Positions 3,545 through 39,736 of a stretch of 64,000 nt of DNA are shown in pieces. A program made the position numbers and the translations under genes. The notes below the pieces were generated by a model. That model had not been told where the DNA came from. It did not search any database and saw only the letters and a program-made list of their open reading frames with translations. The stretch is from a virus, in the IMG/VR virus record IMGVR_UViG_3300043449_002688, positions 90,802 through 154,801 of that record. One strand, 5' to 3'. Each line of letters opens with the position of its first letter. The first letter of the stretch is position 1.

Positions 3545-4699
3545 TTATTTCACTGAGGTCATTGCATTTTCAATCAAAACTTCATACTTGGAAATATTTT
3601 CAGGATTGTTTATCATATATCTGTAAGCAAATTCTCGTGACTTCTTAAGATACTTTTCATTTGGATGCTCAACGCTATCAAAATGCTTAGCAATATAATT
3701 TATATGCTCTACAGCAATAACGGAATTGTTTTCTGGATAATACCAGCCTAAATCTTTCATCATAGGGCTGTTGTGAACTACAGGCCAGCCAAGCCAAGCA
3801 GCATCAAGATAAAGATAATTTAATTCGCAACCATTTTGATGGCAAAGTAAAATATCTACGTGTTTATACAGTGACCAAACAACTGGATATCGTGCTTCGA
3901 ATGTCATCTTTTTGGCTTTATAAATATCTAGCCCAATAGCAAAGTTAATTAGGTCTTTTTTCTTTTTAACTTCTGCTGCACCAAATACTTTCATGTCGCC
4001 AACTGATTCAGGATATTTTCTGTATAATAATTCCGCAGTAATGATAGGAACTGAGCAAGTTTTAACCATATTTAGGTTGGGCTCCATAGTTGCTATTTTC
4101 TTTGCTTGAACCCCATTTGGCGCATAAACTCCATTGTAATCTGAGTTTTCTTTTTTTAAGACTTCAACGTGATGTTGGATAAACCTTGGGTCCCAGATAT
4201 ATGGTCCTTCTAAAACTGGACAATCAAACATTGCTTCAAAAAAGTAACGATCTCGATCATAAAAATGGCCGCTCATCCAAATAGCGCTCAAATGAGGGTT
4301 TCTTGAATAAATCCCACTAGTAGGAAGATTAAATAACATAACCTCGTTAAACATATTAAGTTCTGCTCCAAGAACTTGCTTAACGATTTTTTTACCTTTG
4401 CTTTTAAAGTGAGCATATTCATCTAAATGTAAACTGCCATGACAAACTACAATTAGATCGCACTTTTCTTCAATCTCTTCTAATGGAATTATGTAATCAG
4501 CGTAAGGCTCCCAAGACGTATTTTTAAAACTTTCTTTTGTTACGTTGGGATGGGCATTGATGATATATGCATTGTTGACGTTTTTACATTTAGAATACAT
4601 TTCTCTAAGCAAAATAACATTTTGCCTAATGCCATTGCTAAATAACGAATCTTCTTTAGGGTTTTTAATAATTATTGTAATGCCAACATTATATTTCAT
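3545..4699 (-). CDS. DUF2827-type glycosyltransferase
   Basis: 384 residues. The start (VGITIIIKNP...SNGIRQNVILL) and the C-terminal GCELNYLYLDAAWLGWPVVHNSP followed by YYPENN match my recollection of the DUF2827 family, GT-B-like sugar transferases of phages and bacteria. The donor-binding half would be the C-terminal part. Likely substrate is a surface glycan or modified nucleotide; nothing here decides which. AAGGCGG precedes the ATG and a sigma70-like promoter lies at 4732-4760. IMPDH-like gene follows 51 nt downstream, so the two may be cotranscribed. Confidence 0.7.
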   Translation of the reverse strand: MKYNVGITIIIKNPKEDSLFSNGIRQNVILLREMYSKCKNVNNAYIINAHPNVTKESFKNTSWEPYADYIIPLEEIEEKCDLIVVCHGSLHLDEYAHFKSKGKKIVKQVLGAELNMFNEVMLFNLPTSGIYSRNPHLSAIWMSGHFYDRDRYFFEAMFDCPVLEGPYIWDPRFIQHHVEVLKKENSDYNGVYAPNGVQAKKIATMEPNLNMVKTCSVPIITAELLYRKYPESVGDMKVFGAAEVKKKKDLINFAIGLDIYKAKKMTFEARYPVVWSLYKHVDILLCHQNGCELNYLYLDAAWLGWPVVHNSPMMKDLGWYYPENNSVIAVEHINYIAKHFDSVEHPNEKYLKKSREFAYRYMINNPENISKYEVLIENAMTSVK

Positions 4700-5316: not shown

Positions 5317-5557
5317 CTGCCCTAATTGCAAGTCTAGCTGGATTGGTGAGCCAATTCCTGAAGTCCTTCGTCAGCATTACGGCGATGAAACTCATTGGCG
5401 CAGAGAAATAAACATTGACGGTGGCTACATGGGCATTTATGATGGAATAGTCGCAGTTATATGCCCAGACTGCAAAGAAGAATTTCCCCGAAACGATAGT
5501 TCTTGGGCGTTAGAAATGTTTAAGAAGTACCAAGAGGCTGTAAATGAGAGTAAATAA
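5309..5557 (+). CDS. zinc-ribbon protein, 82 aa
   Basis: Has CPNC at residues 4-7 and CPDC at about 54-57, a four-Cys zinc-ribbon arrangement, with HWRREINIDGG and YDGIVAV between. Proteins of this pattern are common in phage early regions and have no assigned role. The start overlaps the preceding zinc-finger gene and the end overlaps the Ala-rich gene (ATGAGAGTAA), so it is part of a translationally coupled run. Confidence 0.65.
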   Translation: MDNCPNCKSSWIGEPIPEVLRQHYGDETHWRREINIDGGYMGIYDGIVAVICPDCKEEFPRNDSSWALEMFKKYQEAVNESK

Positions 5558-6146
5558 AGAAATAATCTCAAAATTAGGTCCATGTAAAAATAGGTTCGAT
5601 AATTATTTAGAATATTACTCTGACTTTGATGGAACCTTACAAGAATTTATTTTGCTAGATAAAATTACTCATAAAGACAAAATTTGGGTAATTACAAAGC
5701 TTTTTGATGACAAGCAAAAAAGTAAATGGGCTATTAAATGTGCTTTTAGCGTTTTATATATATACGAAAAGAGTTTTCCGTCTGACGATAGACCAAGAAA
5801 AGCTATAGAAGCCGCACAGGAATGCCTAAGTAATCCTGCTGCTCGTGCTGCTGCTTATGCTGCTGCTGATGATGCTGCTCGTGCTGCTGCTTATGCTGCT
5901 CGTGCTGCTGCTTATGCTGCTGCTTATGCTGCTTATGCTGCTGCTTATGCTGCTGATGATGATGTTACTCGTGCTGCTCGTGCTGCTGTTGATGCTGCTC
6001 GTGCTGCTGCTTATGCTGCTGCTGATGATGCTGCTCGTGCTGCTGCTTATGCTGCTGATGATGATGTTACTCGTGCTGCTGCTTATGATACGCAAAAACA
6101 ACTTAATTTAAAGTTTGCTATCGAGGTCTTAAATGAAACGAAGTGA
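5544..6146 (+). CDS. Ala-rich Imm-5-like protein
   Basis: 200 residues. The first 90 are ordinary (KITHKDKIWVITKLFDD, then KWAIKCAFSVLYIYEK and RPRKAIEAAQE). The next 85 are runs of Ala with Tyr, Arg and Asp. This order resembles the family annotated as putative immunity protein (Imm-5), where a conserved PRKAIEAA segment precedes Ala-rich helices. Whether it neutralises a toxin or acts otherwise is unknown. The Ala-rich part is encoded almost purely by GCT repeats. The last codons (AATGAAACGAAGTGA) double as the start of the next gene. Confidence 0.55.
   Translation: MRVNKEIISKLGPCKNRFDNYLEYYSDFDGTLQEFILLDKITHKDKIWVITKLFDDKQKSKWAIKCAFSVLYIYEKSFPSDDRPRKAIEAAQECLSNPAARAAAYAAADDAARAAAYAARAAAYAAAYAAYAAAYAADDDVTRAARAAVDAARAAAYAAADDAARAAAYAADDDVTRAAAYDTQKQLNLKFAIEVLNETK
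5838..6090 (+). repeat. GCT-rich trinucleotide repeat tract in coding sequence
   Basis: About 250 bases dominated by GCTGCT with interspersed GAT, TAT and CGT codons, all within the Ala-rich gene. A larger unit (Asp-Asp-Asp-Val-Thr-Arg-Ala) occurs twice, and a Tyr-Ala-Ala-Ala-Asp-Asp-Ala block also occurs twice, so the tract grew by duplication. The tract makes spurious long ORFs in two other frames. Confidence 0.85.
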
Positions 6147-10055: not shown

Positions 10056-10132
10056 GGACACTTAGCTTAGCTGGTGAAAGCATCCCGCTCATAACGGGAG
10101 GATCGTAGGTTCGAGTCCTACAGTGTCCACCA
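10056..10132 (+). tRNA. tRNA-CAU (Met-type)
   Basis: 77 nt with a 7-bp acceptor stem (GGACACT/AGTGTCC), a D arm with GCTGGTGA, an anticodon stem TCCCG/CGGGA around CTCATAA (anticodon CAT), a T arm with GGTTCGAGTCC, discriminator A and an encoded CCA end. CAU could mean elongator Met or, after lysidine modification, Ile for AUA codons; the latter would suit an AT-rich genome. The first base pair G-C argues against initiator tRNA. Confidence 0.95.
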
Positions 10133-12896: not shown

Positions 12897-13091
12897 ATGG
12901 GGAAAGTTATTTCATTGGATGAGTTTAAACGCCTCAAGGAACGAGGCGAATCTATTCAGAAGCTACTAAAAATAGCCATGGAAGCGGCGGAGAACGGTAA
13001 CGAAGAGCTACTTTTGGCCATGGAAGATGAGCTAGAAGAATTATTAGAATTAGAATTAGAATTAAATTTAATTAAAGACAAGGATGAATAA
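12897..13091 (+). CDS. hypothetical acidic protein, 64 aa
   Basis: Begins MGKVISLDEFKRLKERGESI; start 12897 is favoured by GGAG six nt before it. An upstream in-frame ATG at 12852 would add 15 residues without a good ribosome-binding site. Helical, with a Leu/Glu-rich C-terminus (ELEELLELELELNL). Last coding gene before the GGA-hairpin RNA, probably on the same transcript. Function unknown. Confidence 0.6.
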   Translation: MGKVISLDEFKRLKERGESIQKLLKIAMEAAENGNEELLLAMEDELEELLELELELNLIKDKDE

Positions 13092-13200
13092 CAGGGAGCA
13101 AGGAAGCTCCCGTTGTAAGCATTTAGCAGGACGCTATTTTGAGCAGGACGCTCAGTGCTTATGGTTCCCCAGCTCCGTAAAAAGAGCTGGGTTTTTATTT
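13079..13200 (+). ncRNA. CsrB/RsmZ-like GGA-hairpin RNA (CsrA sponge candidate)
   Basis: After the last gene come three hairpins whose apical loops present GGA: GGGAGC-AAGGAA-GCTCCC (13094-13111), TAGC-AGGAC-GCTA (13124-13136) and TGAGC-AGGAC-GCTCA (13140-13154). The latter two sit inside a TAAGC/GCTTA stem (13116-13120/13157-13161), and all are followed by an intrinsic terminator. Their cores read CAAGGAAG, CAGGACG and CAGGACG. From established knowledge, CsrB carries repeats CAGGA(U/C/A)G in loops and CsrA/RsmE prefers CANGGANG. A further linear CAAGGATG lies at 13079-13086 in the preceding gene. I infer a 3'-end RNA that titrates host CsrA/RsmA. Alternative: a ribosome-binding decoy, since AGGA also resembles Shine-Dalgarno. 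Confidence 0.55.
13168..13200 (+). terminator. intrinsic terminator of the plus-strand region
   Basis: CCCAGCTC (13168-13175), loop CGTAAAAA, GAGCTGGG (13184-13191), then TTTTTATTT (13192-13200): an 8-bp GC-rich perfect stem with a T tract. It separates the plus-strand small-gene region from the convergent baseplate gene, whose stop is at 13201. Confidence 0.95.
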
Positions 13201-16200
13201 TTAATTTGAAATTAAACTAACTGTAATATCTGCTGTAGGGTCAACAATGTAAGCTTTTTCAAATGCAGCAACTGGTATTAGATCATTTGCAGAAGAGTAG
13301 GACGGAGAAGTTACAGCTACTGCTACAACGCCAGGAATATAGTTGGCTGCAGATACCATTTCGCTGATAGAAACAGATTGACCTACTCCAAGAGCATTAA
13401 CATAACCAGCAATTGCAGCTTTTACGTTTTCTCTAATTTCAGAGAAAGGTACTCCAGTTTTAACTCGAACTGTAAATGCAGCAGTAATTCTACGAACAAT
13501 TGCTTGTTTAATATCAATGTCAGTACCTGCTGCCCTAACACCAGGATAAGTTAATGGATCTGATGAATCGCCATAAATAATACGGTTAAGCTCTTTAACA
13601 AGACCTTGATAATAAATATAAGAATCTATACCAAAATTAAGCGATTGATTAAATCCAAGCTTTCCAGATACAGACAATGTTGCACCTAAAGAAGCACTGA
13701 CTTTATCCATCAGTTCTGGGGTATTAAAAAGAACTGTAGCTTGAGAAGCATTGGTCGGTCCAACTGCAAAGACTTTTTTGTATAAAGTTATCGGATCTTT
13801 TTCTTCTACATTTACATTTAAATATTCTCCGCCCAATGCAGCAGAAATGCTTTGGTTGAAAGTAGGAGATATGTAAATTCTACTAGGAGTTGGGAATGGA
13901 GTGTTATTATCTGCAGGTCCCAATACTGTATATCTGCCATAGTTTTGTGGACTCAAAATGTTTGTAGCAATATTTAAAACATCTCCTGGCATAACTGAAT
14001 CGTATGAATAAAAATTGATATTGTTTACGTCGCCAACTTGAGCAATTTCTTCTACGCCATTGTCGTTTTTAATCCAGAAGGCATTTCCAAACACTCGAAC
14101 AACTTGGAAAGTTCCTAGATTGCCTTTGTTGAATTCGCGCTTTTCCCAATAAGTGCTATTTGCAGCATCAGGAAGATTGCCAATATTTCCGTTAACGAGA
14201 GAAGCATAGATAGTTCCAGCATAGAAAACTCTTTGATCAACTGCATAAGTAGTAGAATTAGACCAATCAGTTGTAGCGTTTTCTTCTGAAATTCTTACCC
14301 AATCACCTTCTTTTACTCCGCCAGCTAGCAAACCAAGAGAACTTCCAGCGATTGGAATATAAGCCATGAAGTCGCCATGTTTTTCTATCTTAAACTTAAC
14401 AGTAGTATTTAGAGTAATAGTGCGTTTAGTCTGGAAAGTACCAGGACCAGTGATATCGACCCATCCTCCGGCGTTATTTAAAGAAAGGGTTGTTGTGGTG
14501 TCAAACCCAAGAGATTTGTTTTGTCGAACTGTATTTTTTATAGTTACCCATTGATTAGGCAACAAACCTTTTTTAGTTTCAAAAGGTACTTGTATTGCAC
14601 CAAGTTTATTGTTAACTTTTCGGCCTGAGCCTGAAGTAGCGATTTCAACTCTATTAGAAGTTCCACCAGCAATTTGAATGCTGCCAGTTGTACCAAATGT
14701 TTTAGTAGAAATCTGTAATTGCTTTCCGTATTTTGAAAGATTAATATTAGCTACATTTGAAAGACCAGTAACTGATAGTTTATTCCAAAACCTAACAAGT
14801 TGTTCAGATGTAACTGCTACAAGTCTAATTTCTTCGCCAATTTCAGGCTCTGTTACCCAAGATTTTTTAACCTGGAACATTGGGTCATATTGAGCGGCAG
14901 CAAGGTTAGTAGTTTTGATCGAGTTTTCGCCATCGCTCATCATTAAATATTTAGTTGAACCGATTACAGTTCCAACAATAGTATTCGTAGAACTGCTCGT
15001 AGCAATTATTGAAGATTGAGTCTCTATAATGTTTTTAGCTAAAGCAGGGTCATAATAAGAATCTATAACCACATAGCTGCCACTATAAGATTGATAAGAA
15101 GGTGTGGCTATTGTTATCTTAATATCTGCTCCTTTTGGAAGCAGAGTATTTGTTGCAAATCTTACAAATCTAGAGCTAGATCTAATGTAGAGATTTGTAA
15201 CCGTAGTGCTTATGTATCCGCTAGAAAGTAATATATCTTCAGTAGAAAGATCTATTATATCTTCTGTCGTTCCATCAGGGCCGATTTCTGCCAAAGCTCT
15301 ATTTGGTAAATAAGTTGCTACATAATCTACTATATCTTGAGCTGTAGTGTTACATGAACCAAACTGTAGGTTTTCGTCAGCTTGCCCGCCTAAACATCTA
15401 GCTAGATAACCTTGATCTACACATTCACCGTAAGTACCTCCAGTAGCCGAAGCATTTCCACCAACTGGGTAAGTAAATGTAAACATGCTTGAGTTGTAAG
15501 TATTTACTGTAAAAGTTCCATTCAAAGATTCAACAGTAGTTTGCCAGTAAGCAGTTGCAGAACTTGGTATGTTGTTTGTGTTGCTTGCCTGTAATGAGAT
15601 ATAAGTTTGGCCTAAATATTCAACTAAATCATTAACTCCATAAGTTGTAGCACTACTCCAATCCGCCAAATCACTATTACTAATACGAACAATATCTCCA
15701 ACTAATAGACCTACAGTTGAAGCTGTATTAACTGTAACAGTATTACCTACTTTAGTAATAGAAGTAATATTTGTTAGCGCAGAAGGTGCTTTAGATTGGA
15801 AGTCTACTCGTCCAGTGTTAATGCTTCCAGCAGTAGATCCAGGTTTAATGTACTGAAATTGATTTGTTCCCAAAACTCTATAAACTGCAGTTAATCCATT
15901 ATAAGGAGTGCCTGCATTTGAGACTAAAATAACATTTCCTTCGCTTAAATTATGGGCCGTAGAAGTTGTAATAGTTACAAGATTGTTGGAATGAACACCG
16001 TAAGTAATGTTACTTCCAATTCCTAAACTAGGAGCTTTAACTGTGAACTTAGTTGAGTTTACTATACTGTCAATAGCATAAGTTCCATTAATTGGGCTAT
16101 TAATTCCATCAGAAAGTACAGTGCCTGCTAAGCCAATTCTTTGTCCTTTTATAGCATTGTGAGCAGCAGTTGTTTCTACAGTAATAACCCCATTTTTATT

Positions 16201-32449: not shown

Positions 32450-34147
32450 TTAAACTATTTCACGCCATTGAAGGCTTACAGCTACGTTAGCAGTAGCATT
32501 TGCTTGCGAAGAAAGGGTTCTAGCTAAAACTACATAAACTTCTGAATCTGTAGAATCCATGTTTTGGTATATGATATTTTTGACAGCGGAAGAAAGCGAA
32601 GTTGCAGAAGCTGATGTTGTAGAGTTTTGACTGGTTCCTGCTGTAATAAATCCAGTAGATAGAGGATCTAAAACAACAGGAAGAAGGCTTGTAGCATTTA
32701 AACAGTATTCGGTAGCGCTTACATTTGGCTCTGTAGAAGTCCAAACGAGACCACCTGGGGCAGTAGTTGCAAGATAGCTTGCATTAGGTATTTTAACTAT
32801 TACATATTCTATGCTGGTAACTTCTGCATAAATAGAAGAATTAATAATTTTTACTCCAATTCTGTTTGGAAGCCCATTATAAGTATTGCTAAGTCTAACG
32901 GCCAAAACGGGCAAATAAGTGCGGCCTGGAGTTAATGTAGTTCTTATTCCAGTTGAAGCAGAAAAGTCTTTTCCTGCCTCGATATATCCACCTTCACTTA
33001 TAACCGTAGAGCATATTTGTTCCATTTTACCGCCAGCAGTTTCTCCTGTATTAAAAATTTCACATCTGACAGGTAGATTTGGATTGCTTAAATATGGAGT
33101 TTCCAAAACATTTGAATGATAATATTCATGAGCTACAATTACTTGTCCATTGTGAACAAAACCGCATCGAACTCTACCAACTCCTAACCATTGAAAGTCA
33201 ATATAAATAAGTTGCGTTTTGCTAGTATTAATATTGAATTTACTAGGGCCAGTCCCATCACATCTATCTATATTCCAATTTTGTTGAGGAACCCTTCTTA
33301 AATAAGAACCTATGTTAGCTTCGCTTGGAGTGCCGCCTATCTTAGATCTAATGACAAAATTAAGTTGACCGTTATCGGTTTTATTTGAAGTGTTTGAGCC
33401 AACTTGTTCAAAATAAATTCCATTATTATTATCAAAATATCCAGTTCTTTTTGTTACATTTTTTTCAGCATATCCAAAACAAATAGAAGAATAAATTAAT
33501 TGAGATTTCCCAGGCTGATATGGATGATATGCTTTGGTTTGATGTTGAACCGAGGAAGCAGGGTTACTGCTTGTTGTTAAAGTTACTGAAGCATTATTGG
33601 CAGTTGTTGTTGCTGTTCCGCCATTTAAGGTTTTTACATTATGATCTGTATCGTCGTATATATGTTTGTAATCGCCAAGAGAAAATACTTCTGAAATTCT
33701 AGTTCTTCCAAAGGCATCGTCATTTGATGGTTTTGAAATTATTGGAAAAAAATTATTAGAATTATAATATCTTCCAAATTCATCTACAAGAACATTTCTT
33801 AAAGCAACAGTAGGTTCTTCATCGTAAACTGCACGAATTATAAGTTCAGAACCCATCTTATTGCGTTCTTGTTCGTACATTTCTAAAGAACCGCCATCAT
33901 ATTCTGTTGGGTTTTCTAGTCGATTAAATTGAGGGTCTATTAAGCCAATTTGCAGTTGAGTGTCCGATAAAACTCTTTTAATTACATAATTTTTTGCTAC
34001 AATTCCAGTTTTCTTTAAAGTAACAATTTGCCTAACTTTAAGCCCAACTGTAGAAGTTACAGTTATAATATGATTAGAAACAAAAATAGGAGCAAGCAAT
34101 ATAGTTGGCCACTTGCTTTCTAATACAGAATACAAAGTTGACTGCAT
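32450..34147 (-). CDS. virion structural protein, 565 aa
   Basis: Beta-rich protein containing DAFGRTRISEVFSLGDYKHI, a pattern known to me from many marine and T4-like virion proteins (DAFGR.R.SE..). Later sections (LNGGTATTTANNASVTLTT) are Ser/Thr-rich like fibre or decoration proteins. AAAAGGAGCG before the ATG. Lies at the end of the MALING operon. It is probably an external tail or head protein; exact role unknown. Confidence 0.65.
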   Translation of the reverse strand: MQSTLYSVLESKWPTILLAPIFVSNHIITVTSTVGLKVRQIVTLKKTGIVAKNYVIKRVLSDTQLQIGLIDPQFNRLENPTEYDGGSLEMYEQERNKMGSELIIRAVYDEEPTVALRNVLVDEFGRYYNSNNFFPIISKPSNDDAFGRTRISEVFSLGDYKHIYDDTDHNVKTLNGGTATTTANNASVTLTTSSNPASSVQHQTKAYHPYQPGKSQLIYSSICFGYAEKNVTKRTGYFDNNNGIYFEQVGSNTSNKTDNGQLNFVIRSKIGGTPSEANIGSYLRRVPQQNWNIDRCDGTGPSKFNINTSKTQLIYIDFQWLGVGRVRCGFVHNGQVIVAHEYYHSNVLETPYLSNPNLPVRCEIFNTGETAGGKMEQICSTVISEGGYIEAGKDFSASTGIRTTLTPGRTYLPVLAVRLSNTYNGLPNRIGVKIINSSIYAEVTSIEYVIVKIPNASYLATTAPGGLVWTSTEPNVSATEYCLNATSLLPVVLDPLSTGFITAGTSQNSTTSASATSLSSAVKNIIYQNMDSTDSEVYVVLARTLSSQANATANVAVSLQWREIV

Positions 34148-34168
34148 TGCTCGCTCCTTTTAACTTGA

Positions 34169-36856
34169 TTATGCTATAGCATTATCTTTAACTGCTATAA
34201 ATCTTTGATAAATAGTGTTATACATAGAGAACGTTCCACCAATGCAAACTTTTCCATCATTTTTTACAAGCACAGCATTAACTATACCGATAATTTTTCC
34301 GCCATCAACTATAGCAGTCATGAATGTAGAATCAAGCACACCAGAACTGTTAACTTTAATTAAACAGTTTCTATTAGTTGCGCCTGGATATCCTGTAAAT
34401 CCTCCACCAACGTAAATAACATTATCTGAATCAAGAACTATAGAGTTAACAGCTCCATTAACAATCTTACTTCCATCAACTGCATTGGTCATAAACGTAG
34501 TGTCAAGATTTCCAGAGCTATCAGCTTTAATTAAGCGACTTCTTCCAACTGTACCGCCATAAGTAATAAAATCTCCTCCAATGTAAACGTTGTTGTTTGA
34601 GTCTGCAATAATCGCATAGACGATATTGCTAAACTTTGTGCCATCAACTGCATTGGTCATAAATGTAGTATCAAGTACACCAGAGCTATTAACTTTAATT
34701 AAACGATTTCTTCCTGATGTACCAGCATAAGAAGTAAATGCTCCTCCAATGTAAACATTGTTGTTTAAATCTTTAGCAATTGCAAAAACCGTACTACTAA
34801 ATTTTGTGCCATCGACTGCATTAGTCATAAATGTAGTATCAAGCACACCGGAGCTATTAACTTTAATTAAACGATTTCTTCCTGATGTATTGTTATAATT
34901 AGTAAAAGCTCCACCAATGTAAATATTGTCATTTGAGTCAATTGCTATTGCTCGAATAGTGCTGCTAAATTTATTTCCATCAACTGCATTAGTCATGAAT
35001 GTAGAATCAAGCACACCAGAGCTATTAACTTTAATTAAATAGTTTCTAAAATTTGTTCCACCATAAGTAATAAAATCTCCACCAATGTAAACATTGTTGT
35101 TTGAATCAATAGCAATAGAATAAATTTGATTATTAAATTTACTTCCATCAACTGCATTAGCCATGAATGTAGCATCAAGCACACCAGAACTATTAACTTT
35201 AATTAAACGATTTCTTCCTGATGTATTGCCATAATTAGTAAAGTTTCCACCGATGTAAACGTTATTGCTTGAATCTGTAGCAATGGCAGAAATTTGGTTA
35301 TTAACAAAAGAAATCCCAATAACATTTGTTACAAAAGGTTCAGATAATACTCCGCTAGTTGAAACTTTAGTTAAATAATTAAAAAACAATCCGCCTATAT
35401 AGATATTATCGTTTAAATCTTTAACAACAGTGAAAACTGTATTATTTAATTTAGCTCCATCAACTGCGTTGGTCATAAATGTAGTATCAAGTACACCAGA
35501 GCTATTAACTTTAATTAAACGATTTCTGTTAGTTGTGCTGGCGTAGTTAATAAAATCTCCTCCAATGTAAATGTCGTTGTTTGAGTCAATTGTAATAGAA
35601 TTAATTACTGCACTGATCTTGCTTCCATCAACTGCATTAGTCATAAATGTAGTATCAAGCACCCCAGAGCTATTAACTTTAATTAAACGATTTCTTCCTG
35701 ATGTACCAGCATAAGAAGTAAAGTTTCCTCCAATGTAAATATTAGAATTTGAATCTACAGATATGGCAAAAACAGCTCCTCCAACAAATTTAGCTCCATC
35801 AACTACATTAGTCATGAATGTAGAATCAAGAGTACCAGAGCTATTAACTTTAATTAAATAACCTCTACCTGAAGTTCCTCCGTAAGAAGTAAAAGCTCCA
35901 CCAACATAAACATCATTGTCAGAAAGGATAAGGACTTTGTTAACCCCAAAATTAAATTTACTTCCATCAACTGCATTAGTCATAAATGTAGTATCAAGCA
36001 CACCGGAGCTATTAACTTTAATAAGACTATTTCTACCTGCTGTACCACCATAAGTAATAAAATCTCCACCAATATAAACGTTATCGTTTGAATCAATAGC
36101 TATAGTAGCTACCAAACGGTTAACTGCTCCAGGAAACTTTCCGCCATCAACTGCATTAGTCATGAATGTAGAATCAAGCACACCAGAACTGTCAACTTTA
36201 ATTAAACAACTTCTGTTAATTCCGCCGTAGTTAGTAAATTGTCCACCAATGTAAACATTATCGTTTGAATCAATAGCAATAGAATAAATTTGACCATTAA
36301 ATTTAGCTCCATCAACTGCATTGGTCATAAATGTAGTATCAAGTACACCAGAGCTATTAACTTTAATTAAATAGTTTCTAAAAGTTGTATTATTGTAGTT
36401 TGTAAACCCTCCACCGATATAAACGTTACCATTTGAATCAGTAGCAACAGCCCGAACGGTACTGGATATCAAAGATTTTCCCGCAATGGCTTGAGTAAAA
36501 GTAATTAAACTTTCAAGCTGCATAGTTAGCCCAGGAGGAATATCTGACTTACTAACAGCAAAAGATCCACCATCAAAATCCACTAAGATAATTTTTAAAA
36601 CATTAAATTGTGCTCTGGCTTTTTGCGAAAAAAGTATAAAAGTTTCAGGAGTAGCTTGAGACAAATCAAAGATAATATTTTTAAGCTGTTCGCCTTCAGA
36701 GGACTTATAGATTACTTTTGCAAGTTTAACGTTTTGTGGATCTGAAAAATAACTATCTGCAACAACTGACGCTAAATCAAATAATGCAGTTTTATCTAGT
36801 GTTACAGAAAACACTACGTTTTTAGCTGCAGACTCTGTTCCGTTTATTAATGCCAT
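34169..36856 (-). CDS. MALING-module protein with about 14 propeller-type repeats
   Basis: 895 residues. The first 115 (MALINGTESAAKNVVFSVTL...) are homologous to the two downstream-listed MALING proteins. From about 130 on there are about 14 repeats of 52-60 residues with the core 'IDSN.NVYIGG.FT.Y....RN.LIKVNSSGVLD.TFMTNAVDG'. This is the delta-60/NHL-like blade pattern. Repeat 7 is shortened and diverged (IGGLFFNYLTKVSTSG) and repeat 14 is incomplete, which fits two seven-bladed propellers in tandem. Probably a surface-exposed receptor-binding or decoration protein. Confidence 0.75.
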   Translation of the reverse strand: MALINGTESAAKNVVFSVTLDKTALFDLASVVADSYFSDPQNVKLAKVIYKSSEGEQLKNIIFDLSQATPETFILFSQKARAQFNVLKIILVDFDGGSFAVSKSDIPPGLTMQLESLITFTQAIAGKSLISSTVRAVATDSNGNVYIGGGFTNYNNTTFRNYLIKVNSSGVLDTTFMTNAVDGAKFNGQIYSIAIDSNDNVYIGGQFTNYGGINRSCLIKVDSSGVLDSTFMTNAVDGGKFPGAVNRLVATIAIDSNDNVYIGGDFITYGGTAGRNSLIKVNSSGVLDTTFMTNAVDGSKFNFGVNKVLILSDNDVYVGGAFTSYGGTSGRGYLIKVNSSGTLDSTFMTNVVDGAKFVGGAVFAISVDSNSNIYIGGNFTSYAGTSGRNRLIKVNSSGVLDTTFMTNAVDGSKISAVINSITIDSNNDIYIGGDFINYASTTNRNRLIKVNSSGVLDTTFMTNAVDGAKLNNTVFTVVKDLNDNIYIGGLFFNYLTKVSTSGVLSEPFVTNVIGISFVNNQISAIATDSSNNVYIGGNFTNYGNTSGRNRLIKVNSSGVLDATFMANAVDGSKFNNQIYSIAIDSNNNVYIGGDFITYGGTNFRNYLIKVNSSGVLDSTFMTNAVDGNKFSSTIRAIAIDSNDNIYIGGAFTNYNNTSGRNRLIKVNSSGVLDTTFMTNAVDGTKFSSTVFAIAKDLNNNVYIGGAFTSYAGTSGRNRLIKVNSSGVLDTTFMTNAVDGTKFSNIVYAIIADSNNNVYIGGDFITYGGTVGRSRLIKADSSGNLDTTFMTNAVDGSKIVNGAVNSIVLDSDNVIYVGGGFTGYPGATNRNCLIKVNSSGVLDSTFMTAIVDGGKIIGIVNAVLVKNDGKVCIGGTFSMYNTIYQRFIAVKDNAIA

Positions 36857-36902
36857 TTTAAAATTCTCCCTATATTTTTAATAATAATGTTAATGTTACA
36901 GA

Positions 36903-37247
36903 TTAAAAAGTGATGTTTAATCCTGAAGGAATTTGAGCGCCTTCTAAAGATAAAATATCTTTTTCGTAATCAATTAAAACAATCTTTTCTACCTCAAAAG
37001 AACTTCTTGCTTTTATTGAAAAAAGTATTTGACAAGAAGGAGTTGCTTCTGCCAGATTAAAGGTAAAGGCTTTTTTTTGATTTCCTTGAGTTGATTTATA
37101 CATTATTCTTACGGATTTTACATTTGTTTGACTAGAAAACCAGTCATCTGCTAAAACTCCAGAAAGGCCAAATAGAGTTGTTTTATCTAGAGTTACTGTA
37201 GCTACTACACCTTTTTGTAATCCTGTTATTCCATTTAATAAAGCCAT
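36903..37247 (-). CDS. MALING-module virion protein, 114 aa
   Basis: MALLNGITGLQKGVVATVTL, then DDWFSSQTNVKSVRIMYKS and ARSSFEVEKIVLIDYEKD. Homologous over its full length to the protein at 37274-37624 and to the N-terminus of the propeller protein. A small beta-sandwich is likely. Conserved leader (GAGGAGAATTTAAAA). Gene order implies successive duplications of one module. Role inferred: virion decoration or fibre anchor. Confidence 0.65.
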   Translation of the reverse strand: MALLNGITGLQKGVVATVTLDKTTLFGLSGVLADDWFSSQTNVKSVRIMYKSTQGNQKKAFTFNLAEATPSCQILFSIKARSSFEVEKIVLIDYEKDILSLEGAQIPSGLNITF

Positions 37248-37273
37248 TTTTAAATTCTCCTCGTTATTTTAAA

Positions 37274-37624
37274 TTAAGGTGTAAAATCAATATCTAATCC
37301 AGCAGGAAGATCTGCTCTTCCTACGGAAAGTTGATCGTCTTCATAATCAATTAAAATTACTTTTAATAAGTCAAAATTATCTCTTGCTCTGGCAGAAAAG
37401 CTAATATTTGCCGCTGGATTAGCAAGCGTAAGATCAAAAATAACTGTTTTAATTTGAGACCCAACTGAAGACCTATAAATTATTTTTGCAAATCTTACGT
37501 TTGATTGAATTGAAAACCAATCATCTGCGGCTACTGGAGTTAAGGCAAATAATGCAGTTTTATCTAGAGTTAGAGCAGTAGTTTGTCCTTTGGCTACCGA
37601 ATTTAGCCCATTTATTAATGCCAT
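37274..37624 (-). CDS. MALING-module virion protein, 116 aa
   Basis: MALINGLNSVAKGQTTALTL, DDWFSIQSNVRFAKIIYRS, ARDNFDLLKVILIDYEDD. It is the first gene of the MALING operon, closest to the motif at 37691. It shares nearly all conserved positions with its 114-residue neighbour. AAGGAGAATTTTTAAA precedes the start. Likely a structural protein. Confidence 0.65.
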   Translation of the reverse strand: MALINGLNSVAKGQTTALTLDKTALFALTPVAADDWFSIQSNVRFAKIIYRSSVGSQIKTVIFDLTLANPAANISFSARARDNFDLLKVILIDYEDDQLSVGRADLPAGLDIDFTP

Positions 37625-37784: not shown

Positions 37785-37813
37785 TTGTTTTGAAATATCA
37801 AAAATGCTATAAT
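37785..37813 (+). promoter_or_regulatory. sigma70-like promoter (TTGTTT-17-TATAAT)
   Basis: TTGTTT (37785-37790), 17 nt, TATAAT (37808-37813), with TGC before the -10 box: a near-ideal extended promoter. Drives the small genes, the tRNA-like RNA and thyA. Confidence 0.75.
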
Positions 37814-37837: not shown

Positions 37838-38113
37838 ATGAATCAAAATATGGCTAATCAATACGGAATGCAGTATCTGGAAATTTCAGCAGAAATCTCT
37901 CGCCTAGAAAAGAAAAAAGAAGAGCTTAAGAAAATGCTTCTTCAAGAAGGCAGTTTTGAAACTGATATGTATTGTTTTGACGTAAAAGATGTTGATCTTT
38001 TTAGGGTTGTAGACGCCAATACTTTGCTAGAGAGATTGGGTATGATGACTGTAGAAAAAAATGGTCTTATTCGCCAATCTAGTTACAAAAAACTAACTGT
38101 AAAAGCTAAATAA
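37838..38113 (+). CDS. hypothetical coiled-coil protein, 91 aa
   Basis: Begins MNQNMANQYGMQYLEISAEI; residues 15-38 (EISRLEKKKEELKKMLL) form a heptad helix, followed by a small beta part (DMYCFDVKDVDLFRVVDANT). AAAGGAAATAAAA before the ATG. No family recognised. Confidence 0.6.
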   Translation: MNQNMANQYGMQYLEISAEISRLEKKKEELKKMLLQEGSFETDMYCFDVKDVDLFRVVDANTLLERLGMMTVEKNGLIRQSSYKKLTVKAK

Positions 38114-38118
38114 AAAAC

Positions 38119-38199
38119 GGGCAAGCGAGGTGGTGTGACACCTTGGCGAAAGCTGGTCCTTGGTAAGACAAGGCAGGGTTTAAATCCCTCTTGCCCACC
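38119..38199 (+). ncRNA. tRNA-like RNA without canonical anticodon arm
   Basis: A 7-bp acceptor stem GGGCAAG (38119-38125) with CTTGCCC (38190-38196), then A and CC, plus a T-arm-like hairpin AGGG-TTTAAAT-CCCT (38175-38189) with a 4-bp stem. Between them are AGGTG/CACCT, a GAAA-capped hairpin and CCTTG/CAAGG with a 6-nt loop, none of which is a 7-nt anticodon loop. This could be a degenerate tRNA, a tRNA with an unusual fold, or a tRNA-mimic. It follows the promoter at 37785. Confidence 0.45.
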
Positions 38200-38212
38200 T
38201 TTTGAGGTTTTT

Positions 38213-38443
38213 ATGAAGAAACGTCGCCCTAGTCACGAAAATCCTTTTTTAACAAAAAATACAAAATACGAAAAACAATGTAATCAGCTTATGGGCGATA
38301 ATTTGCCAAAATCTAAAAAAAGACAATGTAAGATGGTTAAAAGCGGTAAAAAATGTAAAAATGCTGTGCCTGAAAAGCGTTATTTTTATTGCAAAGATTG
38401 TCAGCCTTTGTTGCCAGTCGAAAATGGATTTGATACATTTTAA
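38213..38443 (+). CDS. Cys-rich basic protein, 76 aa
   Basis: Starts MKKRRPSHENPFLTKNTKYE at ATG 38213 with TTTTGAGG before it; an upstream in-frame start would cross the tRNA-like RNA. Four cysteines in the C-terminal half (QCKMVKSGKKCKNAV, then YCKDC) may bind zinc. Strongly basic, so possibly nucleic-acid binding. Unknown function. Confidence 0.55.
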   Translation: MKKRRPSHENPFLTKNTKYEKQCNQLMGDNLPKSKKRQCKMVKSGKKCKNAVPEKRYFYCKDCQPLLPVENGFDTF

Positions 38444-38465: not shown

Positions 38466-38711
38466 ATGCAAGATAGTTCTAATAATAAGCCAACCTTTGA
38501 GTCTCGTGATTTTATTAAAATTGCCGATTTTGCGCAAAGTTTTTTCTTAGAATCTAAAAAATTGCCTCTTAATTCTAGGGAATTGCAAATTTATTTGGTT
38601 TTAAATGGATTAAAACAATATTGCGCTCAAATGAATTTAAATCTTCCTTTTGAAATTGAAGACCTTAACAAAGAACGCCTTGATGCTGGAGGCTTGGATG
38701 ACATTGGCTGA
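38466..38711 (+). CDS. hypothetical protein, 81 aa
   Basis: Starts MQDSSNNKPTFESRDFIKIA, helical (ADFAQSFFLESKKLPLNSRE), and ends DAGGLDDIG. The AAAAAAGGAATATTGA site is acceptable. The end overlaps the next ATG (GGATGACATTGGCTGA). Not recognised. Confidence 0.6.
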   Translation: MQDSSNNKPTFESRDFIKIADFAQSFFLESKKLPLNSRELQIYLVLNGLKQYCAQMNLNLPFEIEDLNKERLDAGGLDDIG

Positions 38712-38937
38712 TTTACAATTTAAAATAAAAGTTTTAGCCAATTTTCAACTTAATCTAAAAAGATCAAATGGAAATATATCTTTTGAAAAGCTTTTAATTA
38801 ATCAAGCTAAAAAAGTAGTATTTGAAATAGATCAGGCAATTCATAAAAAAACAGTTAAATCTTCTGATGCGATTGATCTTGTTAAAAAATACAAGTTGCA
38901 AAAAATTATGAGGCTTGTTAGAAATGACAAAAACTGA
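38698..38937 (+). CDS. hypothetical protein, 79 aa
   Basis: Starts [20 protein letters not shown] at ATG 38698, which has TGGAGG 6 nt upstream, rather than an in-frame start at 38650. Basic and helical ([15 protein letters not shown]). The last codons overlap the thyA start (AATGACAAAAACTGA). Unknown function; probably coupled to thyA. Confidence 0.6.
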
Positions 38938-39736
38938 TAACGAATATGAATATTTGCGTTTTTTAAAGCATATCTTAGAAAATGGTAAAGAAAAAACTGA
39001 TCGAACTGGAACCGGAACTATTAGTGTTTTTGGGTATCAAATGCGTTTTGATCTAAGGAAAAGCTTTCCTCTTTTAACTACTAAAAAAATGTTTTTTAAA
39101 GGAGTAAAAGCTGAGCTGCTATGGTTTCTTTCTGGCTCTACTAACATTAAATATTTAAAAGATAATGGAGTTGGCATTTGGGACGAATGGGCGGATGAAA
39201 ACGGAGAACTTGGGCCGGTTTACGGTAAACAATGGCGCTCTTGGCAGACTCCAGATGGCAAAACAATCGATCAGATCTCGCAAGTCATTGAGCAAATTAA
39301 GACCAATCCCGATTCACGCCGACTCTTAGTCGTTGCATTTAATCCTGGCGAAATTGACAAAATGGCTCTTCCGCCCTGCCACGCTTTTTTTCAATTCTAT
39401 GTACAAAATGATAAGCTTTCTTGTCAATTATATCAAAGATCGGGCGATGCTTTTTTAGGAATACCTTTTAACATTGCTTCTTATGCTTTACTTACCCATA
39501 TGATTGCGCAAGTTTGCCAATTAAAAGTAGGCGAATTTATTCACACTATTGGTGATGCACACATTTATTTAAATCATTTAGATCAAGTTAAAGAGCAATT
39601 AACCCGTATTCCAATCGAAGGCCCTGAACTGTTTATTAATCCTAAGATCAAAGATATTGATAATTTTACTTTAGATGATATTACAGTTGTAAATTATAGT
39701 TCGCATCCTGCGATAAAAGGAAAGGTAGCTGTTTAG
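38924..39736 (+). CDS. thyA: thymidylate synthase
   Basis: 270 residues. Methylates dUMP to dTMP with methylenetetrahydrofolate. The nucleophile is Cys152 in [10 protein letters not shown], preceded by [12 protein letters not shown] (the phosphate-binding Arg pair), and [17 protein letters not shown] and [13 protein letters not shown] follow. The N-terminus has [19 protein letters not shown]. The length is that of a full ThyA. Start ATG 38924, with the upstream in-frame codon (38915) lacking a site. An intrinsic terminator overlaps its stop. It supplies dTTP for an AT-rich genome. Confidence 0.97.

Follow-up and report, generated by a model that had tools for sequence, protein, structure and literature searches.

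The tRNA-like sequence between ORF91 and ORF76 of the phage DNA analysed here (a stretch of 64,000 nucleotides, hereafter the window) belongs, as judged from a comparison of nine related elements, to a conserved family of phage RNAs built like class II tRNAs, and the substitutions that separate its members indicate that its structure is under selection. The family is new in being a structured RNA without an Rfam match; as a kind, it belongs with the known tRNA-like leaders. Decoding, by the same comparison, is not its conserved function. We give slightly better than an even chance to the reading, drawn from sequence and gene context, that the element works in cis, as a tRNA-like leader on the mRNA of the operon containing ORF81, where it would aid translation and/or shield the 5′ end of the message. 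Features of the window copy are listed in Table 1.

Table 1. Coordinates of the tRNA-like element, its parts and the surrounding genes in the window.
Feature	Position	Strand	Basis or remark
Likely operon promoter: TTGTTT, 17-nt spacer, TATAAT, TG one base upstream (extended −10)	37785..37813	+	By eye
ORF91, orphan protein family	37838..38113	+	Directly upstream of element in 5/9 lineages
tRNA-like RNA element	38119..38199	+	Fold, family, covariation
Acceptor stem, 5′ strand GGGCAAG	38119..38125	+	Pairs 7/7 with 38190-38196
Hairpin 1 (D-arm position) AGGUG-GUGUGA-CACCU	38128..38143	+	Fold
Hairpin 2 (anticodon-arm position) GGC-GAAA-GCU	38145..38154	+	Fold
RGUYC motif (window: GGUCC)	38155..38159	+	Kept in 9/9 members
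Hairpin 3 (variable-arm position) CCUUG-GUAAGA-CAAGG	38158..38173	+	Fold
T-arm-like hairpin AGGG-UUUAAAU-CCCU	38175..38189	+	Fold
Acceptor stem, 3′ strand CUUGCCC	38190..38196	+	Fold and covariation
Shine-Dalgarno-like GAGG	38204..38207	+	Sequence; within the 16-nt spacer from acceptor end to start codon
ORF76, small protein, Cys-containing C-terminal half	38213..38443	+	First gene after element
ORF81, orphan family	38466..38711	+	Same operon in 9/9 element-bearing lineages
ORF95, TTG start as listed	38650..38937	+	ORF list
Thymidylate synthase	38924..39736	+	Pfam PF00303; last gene of the plus-strand run

The virus record that contains the window is 154.8 kb long and derives from a tailed phage; the sheath proteins of this phage and of Myxococcus phage Mx1 are 35% identical. 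Two tRNAs are found in the record with RF00005. The element lies on the plus strand between the ORF91 stop at 38113 and the ORF76 start at 38213, in the order ORF91, element, ORF76, ORF81, ORF95 and thymidylate synthase, and the run is flanked by minus-strand genes including that of the tail sheath. The likely promoter of the operon is absent from the listing of our promoter scan, which needs four of six matches in each hexamer. Searches of Pfam, PHROGs and NCBIfam returned nothing convincing or above a curated cut-off for ORF91, ORF76, ORF81 or ORF95. The AlphaFold model of ORF91 consists of a long helix plus β strands, and ORF81 is predicted to have a two-helix core. Elsewhere in the window, three adjacent proteins encoded at 34169-37624 (minus strand) begin with a common MAL(L/I)NG sequence, the 895-aa member of this trio having 12 stretches that match the DUF5122 β-propeller repeat, and a 200-aa ORF at 5544-6146 contains long A/Y/D-rich repeats.

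The minimum free energy fold of the element is a closed five-way junction in which the acceptor is joined by three internal hairpins, whose loops are GUGUGA (6 nt), GAAA (4 nt) and GUAAGA (6 nt), and by a T-arm-like hairpin with loop UUUAAAU that abuts the acceptor; the 3′ end reads ACC. This is the structure drawn in the preliminary description, and it is borne out both by its energy (−35.4 kcal/mol, z −2.87, equalled by 3 of 200 shuffles) and by pairs that are supported by covariation. All stems are intact, the G+C content is 57% as against 34% for the window, and of 14,206 folds sampled on both strands (81 nt long, at 9-nt steps) the one at the element position was the most stable. Two of the folds that rank next lie at gene boundaries, at approximately 13078-13203 and 34084-34164, and are perhaps terminators.

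Simple similarity searches did not reveal the family. Blastn against 50,697 phage records returned one 26-base match, ORF91 alone as query had no relative in IMG/VR, and exact DNA patterns of the element yielded nothing, or one stretch whose surroundings by eye were not tRNA-like. Relatives were gathered via the tail sheath (80 of 155 kept) and then searched with covariance models built from the window copy only (R1), from the window, L070 and L074 copies (R2), or from eight members excluding G035 (R3). R1 found the unseen L070 counterpart at 69.2 bits, in a locus with the gene order of the window (ORF91, element, small ORF, ORF81, ORF95, thyA). Reading the matching gene slot, that is, the intergenic sequence following an ORF91 homologue or preceding one of ORF76/ORF81, disclosed closed multi-hairpin folds in L071, L074, L002, L073, L090 and L091, and all of these except L090 were first found in this way and not by a model. 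In a search of 1.13 Mb, R2 found the unseen L090 (E 1.9e-4) and missed L071, L073 and L091; given short stretches only, it aligned all eight. R1 missed five members in whole-locus searches, and distant members were also out of its reach in whole-record searches. Membership of L071, L073 and L091 is based on position, fold and small-locus matches, their R3 scores being high by construction.

With R3, a search of 77 records, which left out ten records behind loci already examined, returned 11 records at E≤6.4e-11 with one place each. They represent nine distinct elements (window, L070, L071, L074, L002, L073, L090, L091 and G035), all scoring at least 54.7 bits, and the last of them had not been seen before (54.7 bits, E 6.4e-11). 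L005, whose element has the same letters as that of L002, and L092, judged by an R3 score equal to that of L091, were not counted as separate lineages. No strong second copy was present in the 77 records. A further 14 places were listed at 13.7-26.1 bits, and the five inspected were tRNAs or lay in a tRNA-rich contig: those in L186, L190 and L191 overlap tRNAs called by ARAGORN, one is the annotated tRNA-Gln of Mx1, and G083:C185 (26.1 bits), in a contig that holds 17 ARAGORN tRNAs, was kept out of the family. The sequence concerned, G083:C185:13466-13556 (L189), comes from a Saccharibacteria metagenome-assembled genome; it looks by eye like a tRNA-Ser(gga), is uncalled by ARAGORN, and has a GUAAAA variable-arm loop with GGAGG shortly after.

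A descriptor scan had L002, L005 and L073 among the matches listed, amid many chance folds, and a degenerate pattern combining GGCGAAAGC with a T-loop retrieved 54 stretches, many of them tRNA-like by eye, of which the best reached 20.7 bits with R3 (E 0.056). Over the same stretches R1 matched L053 with 26.4 bits (E 7e-4) and L059 with 23.7 bits (E 0.004), both rejected as ordinary tRNAs by eye. Weak matches of this kind on tRNA-looking stretches show that R1 and R3 cross-react weakly with tRNAs, at scores below the 54.7 bits that are the minimum among the nine elements.

These searches also brought up other unusual tRNA-like sequences. Two AT-rich phage contigs, L018 (about 4073-4150, minus strand) and L034 (about 5577-5648, minus strand), carry related sequences with a common acceptor (GGGCGTG/CACGTCC) and T-arm, in which an arm containing GGCGAAAGC replaces the normal anticodon arm; possibly they form another anticodon-poor class of phage tRNA-likes. 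ARAGORN calls neither of them, its tRNA-Met in L018 being at 3918-3990. By eye, tRNA-looking phage sequences in L024, L025, L036, L061, L029 and L047 seem to have a GGCGAAAGC hairpin inserted in the D-arm region, and those in L014, L017, L020, L035, L038, L040, L045, L054 and L064 have in common a GCCG(A/T)AGTGGTA-like stretch before a tRNA-like 3′ half. The latter stretch may correspond to the 3′ terminus of small group I introns inserted in phage tRNA genes.

Aligned elements are between 33 and 79% identical. The model alignment of all nine comprises 24 pairs in five helices with 95.3% of pair cells paired, and 21 of the 24 base pairs have changed on both sides, a count that is inflated by the fitting of the alignment to the model structure. 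The covariation score was 0.929 as compared with 0.218 after column shuffling (0 of 500 as high), which does not keep relatedness, and at most 0.159 with slid partners. Another alignment (A7) contained spurious rows and was excluded from the counts. In G035, which was added after model building, the acceptor (7/7), hairpin 1 (5/5) and the T-arm (5/5) pair on inspection, and only two pairs of hairpin 3 are kept.

Individual parts of the element are conserved to different degrees. The acceptor is fully paired (7/7) in seven members and has 6/7 pairs in two. Hairpin 1 has a GUGUGA-type loop in six of them (GUGUGA, CGUGCGAC, GUAGGAA, GUGUGAA twice, and GUGUAA) and loops of other kinds in L074, L002 and L073. 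Most variable is hairpin 2, which ranges from the compact stem-loop of the window copy to a 28-nt stretch in L002. The RGUYC motif precedes or opens hairpin 3 in every member, and the first four positions of the hairpin-3 loop fit NUNA in all nine. A T-loop-like pattern, with loop positions 1 and 5 occupied by U and A respectively, is present in 6/9. Only L090 encodes A-CCA straight after the acceptor, the base at this point being A in five members, and acceptor plus T stem amount by eye to 11-13 bp.

The order of acceptor, D-arm, anticodon-arm position, long variable arm and T-arm is that of class II tRNAs (Leu, Ser, Tyr) and of tRNA-Sec, and R3 also weakly matches true tRNAs, Leu among them. 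Unlike class II tRNAs, the element has an anticodon loop that is not conserved or is absent, and CCA is the exception. At gathering thresholds neither ARAGORN nor Rfam called it, the only call in the window being a tRNA-Met at 10056, and no tRNA match was obtained between 38000 and 38350 at E≤10; the covariance search that had been proposed as a check thus returned no standard tRNA fold at the element. Relaxed Rfam searches gave only sub-threshold candidates nearby, such as STnc480 (27.8 bits against a cut-off of 72), which we rejected. When all nine elements were compared with Rfam 15, no family matched at E≤1; this includes yjdF, whose model is presumably part of the library searched. None reached the 29-bit threshold of the tRNA family RF00005 (a search at E≤10 listed only G035, with 19.1 bits), and none matched tRNA-Sec (RF01852) at E≤10. 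ARAGORN calls two of the nine as tRNAs, with differing anticodons (G035, Met-cat; L090, Ala-tgc), and the window copy has a GAAA tetraloop, so that a consistent anticodon in a 7-nt loop is not a property of the family. For the window copy the preliminary description, of an RNA that resembles a tRNA and lacks a normal anticodon loop, is right; some other copies may be closer to true tRNAs, given the two ARAGORN calls. The element is likely derived from a tRNA.

What the nine lineages have in common beyond the fold is location: the element stands directly 5′ of the operon holding ORF81 in every case, as a tRNA-like fold immediately upstream of a gene start region. It is followed by ORF76 in the window, L074, L002, L073 and L091, by ORF81 itself in L071, L090 and G035, and by a small ORF ahead of ORF81 in L070. 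ORF91 is in front in five lineages, with a gap of 5-10 nt after its stop codon. ORF81 homologues in L072/L075, L088, L093, L099 and L104 (L093 and L104 being short fragments) have no detected element, which indicates that the element goes with the operon and not the reverse.

In the four lineages without ORF91 in front (L073, L090, L091 and G035), the end of the best σ70-like site falls exactly 6 nt ahead of the acceptor's first base (G1), its −35 and −10 hexamers being separated by 17 nt each time. A best site with a score of at least 9/12 at this distance occurred in 0.15-0.45% of shuffles per locus. Promoter scores as such were modest, with 1.4-9% of shuffles scoring as high at any distance, so it is the common distance that carries the case for a start site. 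A site of this score and distance is absent from all five ORF91-led copies. We infer that the transcripts of these four lineages begin at the first acceptor base; in L091, where a same-strand 103-aa ORF terminates 39 nt in front of it, read-through is possible as well. An inverted repeat with the common sequence TTGCGACCCGTGTCGC was noticed by eye upstream of the operon in two diverged relatives, L070 (6934-6949, minus strand) and L073 (15677-15692, minus strand); it is perhaps a terminator or an operator.

Downstream of the element, the start codon follows the acceptor by approximately 14-23 nt in all nine members (for L091, 14 nt if GTG is used and 18 nt with the ATG of the listed ORF). For L071 and G035 the spacer and promoter computations used elements that lack the last 3′ base, which leaves the promoter distances unaffected. 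A clear Shine-Dalgarno sequence is not evident by eye in L070. Pairing between element and Shine-Dalgarno spacer was no stronger than in shuffled sequences (p 0.09-0.95, 0/9 below 0.05), and thus gives no support to a switch that sequesters the Shine-Dalgarno sequence in the manner of yjdF.

Based on this arrangement, we propose that the element constitutes the mRNA 5′ end of the ORF81 operon or, in five lineages, an intercistronic leader. Where a promoter leads the element, transcription would start at the first acceptor base. Two effects, alone or together, may follow. First, the fold could leave the ribosome-binding site accessible, within a short unpaired spacer, and increase translation, as tRNA-like leaders do in vitro. 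Second, an mRNA 5′ end buried in a helix would resist decay that starts at this end. In the window-type layout (ORF91, element, ORF76), RNase P might generate the same 5′ end, which is a guess. For the first effect, passages of PMC9142559 report that translation in vitro rises 2- to 6.3-fold when tRNA-like leaders are located before a Shine-Dalgarno sequence, and that the 3′ ACCA matters little to this gain. As to the second, RppH and RNase E depend on single-stranded 5′ ends according to the relevant part of PMC3997798, and a helix that begins with the first base would be expected to hinder both. One point against the leader reading is that close spacing of this kind is usual in the compact genomes of phages.

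The nearest precedents for the element are the yjdF riboswitch and cis-tRNA leaders (PMC9142559), which likewise do not decode and could raise translation. The phage element differs from them in that an extra hairpin makes it a five-way junction, in occurring in phages and in being placed at the inferred transcript start in four lineages. The tRNA-like mascRNA and menRNA are likewise parts of longer transcripts, as outlined in portions of PMC11693755; these are human lncRNAs, whereas the element is at the 5′ side of phage genes. Among the papers listed by searches of open-licence PubMed Central, none pointed to a tRNA-like mRNA leader of a phage. The stable RNAs C and D of phage T4 are a possible precedent.

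The main rival to the leader reading is a free RNA, which we hold to be unlikely and nevertheless a serious contender. Here the element would be excised, mature like a tRNA and act in trans: it would not decode but occupy EF-Tu, the CCA enzyme, a host anticodon nuclease or some other defence that targets tRNAs. Its class-II-like cloverleaf, the U1/A5 signature of most T-arm loops, the A-CCA of L090 and the two ARAGORN calls are all consistent with such a role, the inferred 5′ end in four lineages would already be the mature end, and a missing anticodon loop would suit a decoy immune to nuclease cutting. However, phage tRNA genes tend to move, and the element is found solely ahead of the ORF81 operon in all nine lineages. 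Moreover, the window scan revealed no terminator-like site between element and gene, and the rarity of CCA, the inconstant base after the acceptor and the length of acceptor plus T stem also argue against a free product. The earlier suggestion of a tRNA mimic is supported in shape only, A-CCA being encoded by one of nine members. A comparable case is the Y RNA YrlA, likewise a non-decoding tRNA mimic encoded with protein genes, for which the pertinent part of PMC7790460 names inhibition of an anticodon nuclease as a possibility. In contrast to YrlA, the element has no Ro60-binding stem that we could see, and the 154.8-kb record, which may be incomplete, contains no Ro60/TROVE gene.

Second among the rivals is an autoregulatory operator: the product of ORF81 or ORF76, or a host tRNA-binding protein, would bind the leader and repress translation, as ThrRS does on its own mRNA. 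The constant presence of ORF81 in the operon would suit this model, as would the RGUYC motif and NUNA loop kept in every member and the GUGUGA-type loop kept in six, and a precedent is provided by the thrS leader, a tRNA-like element in a bacterial mRNA leader to which, in the account excerpted from PMC5723415, ThrRS binds and represses translation. The thrS leader mimics the anticodon arm for ThrRS, however, and exactly this position is most variable in the phage element. A fold search found no PDB relative at E≤0.001 for the ORF81 and ORF91 models, and ORF81 also occurs without the element. We thus regard an operator as improbable.

Lower still we rank an intercistronic signal by which RNase P would separate ORF91 from the ORF76/ORF81 genes. 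A 7-bp acceptor with adjacent T-arm is the kind of substrate that RNase P takes, and in five lineages the element does lie between two genes, just behind the ORF91 stop. The processing signal between neighbouring mRNAs that was initially considered is accordingly possible for these lineages; as a general role it is unlikely, since in four others the inferred promoter starts the transcript at the element (with possible read-through in L091). RNase P processing could nonetheless add to any of the readings in the ORF91-led layout. That the element is a decaying or pseudogenised tRNA, another early proposal, can be practically dismissed despite its atypical loops and the two relatives that still pass ARAGORN, because the stems are intact and maintained by compensatory changes across lineages (21 of 24 pairs covary) and because its position is fixed among phages whose sheaths are about 49-65% identical to that of the window.

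Returning to the cis-acting leader, a bolder formulation is that in some tailed phages an operon mRNA opens with an entire tRNA-like body, the first transcribed base being acceptor base 1 and the ribosome-binding site following directly, so that one structure would serve as 5′ shield and as ribosome-recruiting leader. We put this forward tentatively, as a possibility about which we are rather doubtful. If true, the 5′-placed tRNA-like body would be the DNA-phage counterpart of viral tRNA-like structures. Our analysis adds to phage biology a structured RNA family that combines strong covariation and a fixed gene context with the lack of an Rfam match, and it illustrates that a broken-looking tRNA-like phage sequence can be a conserved RNA. 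Should the free-RNA reading apply, the element would be a phage tRNA decoy without anticodon. If it is the leader reading that holds, phage mRNAs would have co-opted the tRNA fold, at their 5′ ends, as a module for translation or stability, outside riboswitches and RNA viruses.
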